A DNA stretch of 64,000 nucleotides from Paracoccus sp. PAMC 22219 (lineage in GTDB: Bacteria; Pseudomonadota; Alphaproteobacteria; Rhodobacterales; Rhodobacteraceae). A program made the translations under genes and the position numbers. Each line of letters begins with the position of its first letter. Position 1 is the first letter of the stretch. Shown in pieces: positions 27,893 to 59,424 of the stretch. A model generated the notes under the pieces. That model made no database searches. It had not been told where the DNA came from and worked only from the letters and a program-made list of their open reading frames with translations. Location: NCBI RefSeq assembly GCF_000787695.1, contig NZ_BBPH01000001.1, positions 62,001 to 126,000 of the forward strand, written 5' to 3'.

Positions 27893-27967
27893 TGGCAGCC
27901 CGTAGGGGAGTCGAACCCCTCTTTTCAGGTTGAAAACCTGACGTCCTAACCGATAGACGAACGGGCC
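27893..27967 (-). tRNA. tRNA-Glu (anticodon TTC)
   Basis: Minus-strand cloverleaf of 75 nt including an encoded CCA. The acceptor arm is GGCCCGT pairing with ACGGGCT (first pair G-U), the anticodon arm TCAGG-TTTTCAA-CCTGA with TTC at positions 34-36, and the T arm GAGGGGTTCGACTCCCC. It reads GAA/GAG glutamate codons. No other tRNA is seen in the window. Confidence 0.97.
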
Positions 27968-31832: not shown

Positions 31833-32205
31833 CGCGGAGGGCTGGATGACCGCGGCAGGCTTGCCTGTCGAGGAAAGTCCGGACTCCATGAGGCAATGGT
31901 GCCGGGTAACGCCCGGCGGGGGCAACCCCAGGGACAGCGCCACAGAGAACAGACCGCCCATGTCCGCATGGGTAAGGGTGAAACGGTGGGGTAAGAGCCC
32001 ACCGGGGGGCTGGCAACAGCGCCCGCATGGCAAGCCCCACCAGGAGCAATGCCGAATAGGGATCGCGCGCGGAGCAATCCGCAGGGCCGCCTTGCCCCAG
32101 CAGATCCGGGTAGGCAGCTAGATCCGTCCGGTAACGGACGGACCAGAGGAATGGTCATCCAGCCGCGCAAGCGGTGGACAAAATCCGGCTTACAGGCCCT
32201 CCGCG
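31833..32205 (+). ncRNA. rnpB: RNase P RNA (class A)
   Basis: Catalytic RNA that trims tRNA 5' ends. P1 is formed by CGCGGAGGGC (31833-31842) and GCCCTCCGCG (32196-32205). The universally conserved core elements are visible: GAGGAAAGTCCGGACTCC near 31870, a GGGTAACGCCCGGCGGG region, GGTAAGGGTGAAA, CAGAGGAATGGTCATC near 32142 and ACAAAATCCGGCTTACAGG at the 3' end. The ends are placed from P1 pairing and may be off by a few bases. A minus-strand gene ends 5 nt beyond. Confidence 0.96.
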
Positions 32206-32209
32206 CAAC

Positions 32210-58461: not shown

Positions 58462-58584
58462 CCCTGCCCGTCCTTCCGGTCCCCTGCGCGCAGCCGCGAT
58501 CCGCCCGTTCAGGGCGCGTCCGCCCGGGGGGCGTTCGTCAGATCAGGACTGCTGCGACGTTCCTGTGGTTGCCCAAAGTCGGAC

Positions 58585-58600
58585 CACCACATCTTGTGCC
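58585..58600 (-). promoter_or_regulatory. Candidate NrdR box
   Basis: Minus-strand GGCACAAGATGTGGTG resembles the NrdR operator pattern CACAA-x-AT-x-T-x-GTG found before ribonucleotide reductase genes. It lies 124-139 bp upstream of the nrdJ start. NrdR boxes normally come in pairs about 31 bp apart; a clear second box is not visible, which lowers confidence. Confidence 0.4.
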
Positions 58601-58796
58601 ATACTGGCGATTGCCCACAAACTGCCGCCGGTTCGACCGTCTTTCAACTGAATTTTTTAGCGATCACGCCGGGGAAAGCCGTTGACAGGCAGCCCCAGCA
58701 CCCCCCGCGGGATTCGCGCACAGAGGCGCCTGACGGCAGGTGGTGCACCCTGCGGGACATGCGATATGTCATGCGCGATCAGACCCTTGCCGGACA

Positions 58797-58850
58797 TGGT
58801 GCACAACTTGTCCACAGGTTTATCCGCATTTCATCCCCAGGTTGCGCACA
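58797..58850 (+). promoter_or_regulatory. Phased array of DnaA-box-like 9-mers
   Basis: Five 9-mers start at 58797, 58808, 58820, 58831 and 58842 (11, 12, 11, 11 bp apart): TGGTGCACA, TTGTCCACA, TTATCCGCA, TCATCCCCA, TTGCGCACA. The second and third differ from the consensus TTATCCACA at one base each; the others at two or more. A further TTGCCCACA lies at 58611-58619. Confidence 0.45.
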
Positions 58851-58881
58851 GCCGATGCAGATCTGCCACGCCAAGCGGAAA

Positions 58882-59424
58882 TCAGCGCACGGGGGTCAGC
58901 GCGCCGCGGTCGGTGACGATCAGGTCCAGCGGCTGATCGGTCGGCTCTGCCGGGATCAGATCCAGCCGCTGACACGCAAAGGCCAGCCCGATGGCCGTCA
59001 CCGGGCCCGATTTCCGCAGCAATTCCAACGTTCTGTCATAGAAACCGCCGCCATAGCCCAAGCGGTTTCCCCGCTTGTCGAACCCCGCCAGCGGCACGAT
59101 CAGCACCTGCGGCTGCATGACCGGGGCCGATTCGGGGGGATGGGCGGTTCCGAAGGCTCCGGGCACCAGCGCATCGCCCTGCCAGCGGCGAAAGACCAGC
59201 GGACGGGCCTTGCCCATGACCACCGGCAGCACGACAGGACCGTCATGCGCGGCCATCGCGGGGCGCGGATCGGCCTCGTCCCGCATGGGCCAGTATCCGG
59301 CCAGCACCGCCCCCGCATGGGGGGCCAGCACCGCGATCAGGTGACCGGTCAGGGCCTGCGCATCGCCCCCGGCGGCCCGGGCGGCCAGGGCATGGGCGCG
59401 CAGGGCGGCCTTGTCCGCGATCAT
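58882..59424 (-). CDS. ygfA: 5-formyltetrahydrofolate cyclo-ligase
   Basis: A 180-residue enzyme converting 5-formyl-THF to 5,10-methenyl-THF with ATP. The N-terminal basic helix KAALRAHALAARA and the C-terminal RLGYGGGFYDRTLELL, with the metal/ATP-binding YGGGFYDR loop, are diagnostic. The ATG at 59422-59424 overlaps the mgtE stop by 4 nt; an out-of-place longer ORF extends through mgtE and is rejected. Confidence 0.93.
   Translation of the reverse strand: MIADKAALRAHALAARAAGGDAQALTGHLIAVLAPHAGAVLAGYWPMRDEADPRPAMAAHDGPVVLPVVMGKARPLVFRRWQGDALVPGAFGTAHPPESAPVMQPQVLIVPLAGFDKRGNRLGYGGGFYDRTLELLRKSGPVTAIGLAFACQRLDLIPAEPTDQPLDLIVTDRGALTPVR

Follow-up and report, generated by a model that had tools for sequence, protein, structure and literature searches.

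Between fthC and nrdJ, in a 64-kb window of DNA (the whole stretch analysed here), lies a row of 9-mers that resemble DnaA boxes. Are these sites part of the nrdJ promoter, where they could couple a vitamin B12-dependent ribonucleotide reductase (RNR) to replication, or do they serve some other purpose beside the gene? There is a precedent for such coupling, since DnaA is known to control dNTP synthesis through a class I reductase in E. coli, where it acts on nrdAB, and has been proposed to control RNR genes in Caulobacter and B. subtilis (as set out in passages of PMC8203912). The window is part of contig C265 of a 4.0-Mb draft genome and is close to Paracoccus marcusii, with which the N-terminal 120 residues of NrdJ share 98% identity. 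The fthC gene lies upstream of nrdJ on the same (minus) strand, with a gap of 420 bp (58462-58881) between them, and the array begins about 30 bp past the fthC stop (Table 1).

Table 1. Features of the fthC-nrdJ region, in window coordinates
Feature	Position	Strand	Basis or remark
nrdJ, vitamin B12-dependent (class II) ribonucleotide reductase, 1190 aa	54889..58461	-	NCBIfam NF005736, 2157 bits (cut-off 1737)
NrdR box 2, GCACAAGATGTGGTGG	58584..58599	-	Motif search, strong
NrdR box 1, degenerate, 31 bp upstream of box 2	58615..58630	-	Offset peaks at -29 and -31; conserved TTTGTGG half; coordinates from offset
Presumed -35, TTGAAA, with A-tract just upstream	58642..58647	-	Consensus only
CTGTCAA motif, ~90 bp upstream of NrdR box 2	58682..58688	-	Conservation in Paracoccus
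GANTC (GAATC), preceded by CTGTGCGC; putative CcrM methylation site	58711..58715	.	Positional conservation
9-mer TGTGCACCA, fifth in the preliminary description	58797..58805	-	Not conserved; excluded from array
Promoter-proximal DnaA-like box TGTGGACAA, 1 mismatch	58808..58816	-	5' end 217 bp upstream of 5' end of NrdR box 2
DnaA-like box TGCGGATAA, 1 mismatch	58820..58828	-	Mismatch count to consensus
Weak DnaA-like box TGGGGATGA, 2 mismatches	58831..58839	-	Mismatch count to consensus
Weak 9-mer TGTGCGCAA, 3 mismatches	58842..58850	-	Within a block that a Paracoccus clade conserves as CTGTGNNNAA
fthC, 5-formyltetrahydrofolate cyclo-ligase; 3' end adjoins gap	58882..59424	-	TIGR02727, 130.8 bits (cut-off 84.9)

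A phased array of DnaA-like boxes is conserved within Paracoccus

The preliminary description of this DNA listed five 9-mers, starting at 58797, 58808, 58820, 58831 and 58842 in steps of 11, 12, 11 and 11 bp, and all of the form TTRTCCNCA. The starts and the spacings are correct, and so is the remark that two of the 9-mers (58808 and 58820) are one base away from TTATCCACA, the E. coli consensus by which boxes are identified here. The general form fits just these two; mismatches to TTATCCACA number 3, 1, 1, 2 and 3, in the order of the starts. The 9-mer at 58797 does not belong to the array, as it is not kept in relatives, in which the block that is conserved spans roughly 58808-58858. What remains is a real array, conserved within Paracoccus, of four tandem 9-mers between fthC and nrdJ. 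Their placement on one face of the helix holds approximately: steps of 12, 11 and 11 bp make 34 bp, which exceeds three turns of 10.5 bp by about 2.5 bp. On the nrdJ strand the conserved block reads GCTGTGcacAaCC.ggGGA.GA.c.gGGGAtAAgCCTGTGGA.AA. Per-position information in this block is about 1.6 bits in the first promoter-proximal box, 1.1 in the second and 0.4-0.6 farther out, in a profile of 35 loci that were chosen for a box near -217, so that the conservation of that box is inflated.

The phasing might have proved unconserved in relatives, and the opposite was seen. We compared 42 distinct Paracoccus fthC-nrdJ gaps (23 plus 29 loci minus exact duplicates, with G030 left out and L031, which belongs to another family and has no fthC, dropped). 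Forward boxes with no more than one mismatch number 40 in these gaps, vs. 1.6 per shuffle in 30 dinucleotide shuffles. Such a box, wherever it lies, is present in 33 of the gaps and absent from nine. Boxes are found upstream of this RNR gene beyond chance and are conserved. At one mismatch, boxes on the same strand are 12, 23 or 34 bp apart and at no other spacing (six pairs); when two mismatches are allowed, 41 of 44 pairs are 11-12, 22-24 or 34 bp apart, the remaining three being at 31, 46 and 54 bp. Two further loci at which no fthC was found (L071 and L104) bring the Paracoccus set to 44. Between 60 and 320 bp upstream of the NrdR box, a box with no more than one mismatch occurs in 36 of these 44 loci (1.5 in shuffled sequence, 50 shuffles), a perfect box in 12 (0.02), a pair 11-13 bp apart in 17 (0.06) and a helically spaced pair in 30 (0.18). 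The sequences are related, and these counts are thus not independent.

Outside Paracoccus, a box with at most one mismatch occurs in 20 of 55 nrdJ regions vs. 1.5 in shuffled sequence, and the 11-13-bp pair is rare (2 of 55 vs. 0.1); these loci are mostly from Rhodobacteraceae, and as the best NrdR match was forced in each, some anchors may be wrong. A 9-mer scan of 57 loci without an adjacent fthC placed the DnaA box 106th, below NrdR-like and AT-rich words. By eye, Thioclava, Rhodobacter and a few others (L072, L081, L092, L095, L097 and L105) show a further NrdR-like palindrome some 250 bp upstream of the NrdR box, flanked by inverted DnaA-like boxes.

The phased boxes are specific to nrdJ

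Within the window, the array is the sole place with three boxes (at most two mismatches each) inside 80 bp. In the whole 4.0-Mb genome, the 12-bp-spaced pair TTRTCCNCANNNTTRTCCNCA is found with zero mismatches at two places, the nrdJ array and C245:7357 (the probable oriC). Only these exact places stand out, since at up to two mismatches the pattern has six places vs. seven for its backwards control. Exact TTATCCACA shows no enrichment genome-wide (13 sites vs. 14 in the backwards control).

Across 61 Paracoccus genomes, the strict phased pair TTNTCCACANNNTTRTCC gave 19 matches and its backwards control one, and 18 of the 19 have nrdJ and fthC alongside. Both pair patterns were written after the arrays had been seen, and their counts therefore measure specificity. 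The strict form is absent from 42 of the 61 genomes, seven of which have no nrdJ match. The only strict pair away from nrdJ is at L176 (G078:C1:20682), where a second TTATCCACA follows a few bases on. As background, 800 kb of one relative contain 0.041 boxes per kb and three 11-13-bp pairs, all formed by two-mismatch boxes. At other reductase genes in relatives (two further PF02867 types), no box with at most one mismatch was found at any of nine loci in the 450 bp upstream of the frame's first ATG, some of these genes being apparently preceded by coding sequence.

The weak members of the array are two to three bases off TTATCCACA, and identification is by consensus only; the repeats might instead bind another regulator with a DnaA-box-like site. 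We think this distinctly unlikely. The best box is the perfect TGTGGATAA in 10 of the 42 gaps (first 160 bp), and the perfect boxes counted above in the 44 loci have almost no counterpart in shuffled sequence. Furthermore, the arrangement of one strong and several weak 9-mers on the same strand, with 2-3 bp between neighbours, resembles that of the low-affinity DnaA sub-arrays of oriC; the nrdJ array differs from these in being tied to a promoter and not to an origin.

The array keeps a nearly fixed distance to the nrdJ promoter

In the 33 gaps with a forward box, the proximal box starts a median of 217 bp upstream of NrdR box 2 (IQR 216-218, range 75-251), these distances depending on NrdR boxes found by a self-trained matrix. 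The start falls at 214-219 bp in 26 of the gaps; three of the other seven (229, 239 and 240 bp), and perhaps the one at 251 bp, lie on the array's 11-12-bp steps. Additional boxes at 229, 239-240 and 251-252 bp likewise correspond to the array's own steps. At the same loci, the distance from the fthC stop to the box varies (IQR 49-66, range 24-267), as does that from the NrdR box to the ATG (IQR 145-176), indicating that insertions and deletions do accumulate nearby. The position of the array tracks the nrdJ promoter, not fthC. Between -205 and -86 the loci share 0.05-0.38 bits per position, vs. 1.65 over part of NrdR box 2. A near-constant length over unconserved DNA is what a DnaA complex that contacts or wraps the promoter would need. 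The array stands about 165 bp upstream of the presumed -35; the DnaA boxes of E. coli nrdAB are nearer to their promoter than this.

The same distances bear on the proposal that the array is a feature of the fthC 3' end (a 3' UTR or terminator), unrelated to nrdJ. Its start so soon after the fthC stop would fit, but the distance to that stop varies while the distance to the NrdR box is nearly fixed. P. maritimus (L071), moreover, in which no fthC was found within 3 kb, carries boxes at -217 and -240, and no phased pair is present at the seven fthC loci of genomes without an nrdJ match. We consider a role in fthC very improbable.

Those seven loci come from eight relatives, inspected behind fthC, in which the nrdJ match is absent or, in the eighth (G030), broken. 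The seven Paracoccus genomes without an nrdJ match have no array or phased pair within 300 bp behind fthC. Two of them, G008 (L036) and G025 (L033), have kept an nrdJ-promoter-like sequence with NrdR-like boxes before a DegP-like protease gene; at up to two mismatches, one box is found behind fthC in G008 and none in G025. The other five have no box on that strand, and one on the opposite strand in one locus; the fthC neighbourhood differs in these five, which consequently say little about the array. In G030, nrdJ is matched in two pieces in different frames, and there is no array. At L104 (Paracoccus sp. IB05), nrdJ is present with no fthC nearby and no such array. Directly behind fthC at L037 (G014), there is a short run of 10-bp repeats with GTACACA, unlike DnaA boxes.

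Replication origin and DnaA titration as alternatives

Two alternatives had been offered from the outset, a replication origin and a DnaA titration site. A cluster of DnaA boxes with an AT-rich patch nearby would suit an origin, and the patch does lie nearer nrdJ as described. It corresponds, however, to the conserved A-tract and presumed -35 region of the promoter (58642-58660); the weak box reported near it is TGTGGGCAA, with two mismatches, and overlaps an NrdR half-site. A better oriC is the six-box cluster between aroE and hemJ-rho (L051, G000:C245:5869-8877), about 68 kb from dnaA, the HemJ model score of 134.9 being just under the cut-off of 138. In eight of eight relatives, 2-6 boxes with at most one mismatch occur in the 600 bp upstream of hemJ. 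In G022, where nrdJ is at 2.09 Mb, the cumulative GC skew (40 sampled 20-kb stretches) reaches its minimum around the contig ends and its maximum near 1.64 Mb. The probable oriC being far from nrdJ, we reject the origin alternative, which has next to no chance of being correct.

A datA-like titration or inactivation site, or a DARS-like reactivation site, could stand beside nrdJ by chance and act on replication timing and not on nrdJ. Intergenic clusters of DnaA boxes are known as datA-like elements (in the sections of PMC5742627 on datA), and the array, which is such a cluster, holds the only zero-mismatch phased pair in its genome besides the probable oriC; it could thus soak up DnaA to a notable extent. 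A nearly fixed distance to a promoter, however, is not something a sink would require. In addition, datA is near oriC in E. coli, according to the same sections of PMC5742627, whereas nrdJ lies 0.57-0.90 of the half-chromosome from hemJ in eight of eight genomes, if the contigs are closed circles; the array is not near oriC. The seven nrdJ-less Paracoccus genomes, with no array within 300 bp behind fthC and a single box in G008, also argue against titration, with the reservation that the fthC neighbourhood differs in several of them. Overall, titration is unlikely, and we retain it as a rival to control of nrdJ by DnaA.

NrdR boxes, a GANTC site and other motifs in the nrdJ promoter

Two palindromic NrdR boxes form a pair in the nrdJ promoter, separated by about three turns of the helix, as in the NrdR regulon (sections of PMC9110341). 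In Paracoccus, unlike in the regulon described there, upstream DnaA-like boxes and a GANTC site are added. The GANTC and the preceding CTGTGCGC (58711-58723) are positionally conserved in nrdJ promoters across Rhodobacteraceae. In the 39-bp interval 100-138 bp upstream of NrdR box 2, picked after the peak was seen, GANTC is present in 34 of 44 Paracoccus loci and 38 of 55 other loci. For comparison, the same interval holds each of seven composition-matched patterns in 0-5 and 4-12 loci, respectively, and seven other 39-bp intervals hold GANTC itself in 5-11 and 6-19. Its middle base and its flanks differ among loci, which is what retention of the methylation site as such would produce, and its conserved promoter position fits a CcrM/GcrA-controlled promoter. 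The genome contains GcrA-family matches in two pieces on two contigs, one RAMA-domain gene that may be linked to CcrM, and a DnaA that passes its model cut-off.

We considered CTGTGNGC, beside the GANTC, as a further weak DnaA site, but this was not established. In Thioclava (L072 and L081) the GANTC region reads TGTGGATGAATC, a DnaA-like box overlapping the GANTC. The CTGTCAA motif reads TTGACA on the opposite strand and is possibly part of a divergent promoter. CtrA-type sites (TTAA-N7-TTAA) are found in 5 of 44 Paracoccus loci (L006, L011, L026, L062 and L099, where they lie about 140-160 bp upstream of the NrdR box) and in 3 of 55 other loci; with sites in so few loci, CtrA is at most a clade-specific input.

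A probable link between nrdJ and replication

The preliminary description suggested, by analogy with nrdAB, that DnaA controls the B12-dependent reductase. The conserved phasing and the promoter-tied position, both comparative observations, support this suggestion: the array is probably a DnaA-binding array of the nrdJ promoter that couples the class II reductase to replication. Against it stand the nine Paracoccus gaps that lack a forward box, the seven with the proximal box outside 214-219 bp, the absence of an array at L104 and in G030, the rarity of the 11-13-bp pair outside the genus and the distance to the presumed -35. The best reading is that DnaA, probably with CcrM and GcrA, would act alongside NrdR in this coupling.

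We infer DnaA occupancy, methylation of the GANTC and the direction and timing of the effect from the arrangement of the sites. DnaA would bind the strongest, promoter-proximal box (58808-58816) first, and spread head to tail onto the weaker boxes upstream. The complex, kept at a distance of about 217 bp from the NrdR boxes and core promoter, could contact or wrap the promoter. The GANTC would be methylated by CcrM and read by GcrA, and NrdR would sense dATP/ATP; together, the three inputs may couple B12-dependent dNTP synthesis to the replication cycle, with activation around initiation and NrdR shut-off once dATP is plentiful. Activation is slightly favoured over repression by DnaA-ATP.

A more detailed version is put forward tentatively, as a possibility we do not ourselves expect to hold in full. 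The promoter would be a length-locked nucleoprotein switch, in which an ATP-DnaA filament on the phased array reaches across the spacer, nearly constant in length and mostly unconserved, to the promoter and meets NrdR. The GANTC, on a terminus-side gene, would be a clock, fully methylated until fork passage in late S. The oxygen-independent class II reductase would thus be turned on via the replication initiator and off via fork passage and dATP.

DnaA boxes also lie upstream of the class Ia RNR genes nrdAB of E. coli, two of them nucleotide-insensitive and one DnaA-ATP-specific (PMC8203912, in its account of nrdAB). Paracoccus NrdJ is, in contrast, a class II, B12-dependent enzyme, and its gene has a tandem same-strand array of putative boxes about 217 bp from the NrdR box. 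The essential genes listed as reduced on deletion of ccrM in Caulobacter include nrdA, whose promoter contains a conserved GANTC (passages of PMC3973325). The nrdJ promoter resembles the Caulobacter RNR genes in its GANTC and in the proposed control by DnaA; Caulobacter nrdA differs in being class I, and the passages of PMC3973325 and PMC8203912 on these genes mention no phased array. Among the open-access papers found on nrdJ with DnaA boxes, with CtrA and DnaA, with NrdR in alphaproteobacteria, with Paracoccus or with the Sinorhizobium meliloti cell cycle, none appears to describe DnaA sites at nrdJ.

In Paracoccus the promoter of a B12-dependent class II reductase carries tightly positioned DnaA-like boxes and a conserved GANTC. 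This suggests that selection favours a coupling of dNTP supply to replication, no matter which reductase a lineage depends on. The spacing of nearly constant length (217 bp), moreover, yields a testable prediction on how DnaA might act from a distance.

Additional observations on the gap and the window

An Rfam scan found no known RNA inside the fthC-nrdJ gap. A 6S RNA or cobalamin riboswitch in the gap was rejected, the sole weak Rfam match being in fthC and below the gathering score. Plasmid relatives of the gap were also rejected, as a search for matches gave none. Residues 295-367 of NrdJ weakly resemble the N-terminal region of YebC/PmpR regulators (2.6e-07, below the cut-off). Elsewhere in the window, Rfam identifies a class A RNase P RNA at 31834-32208 and a tRNA gene at 27896-27967.
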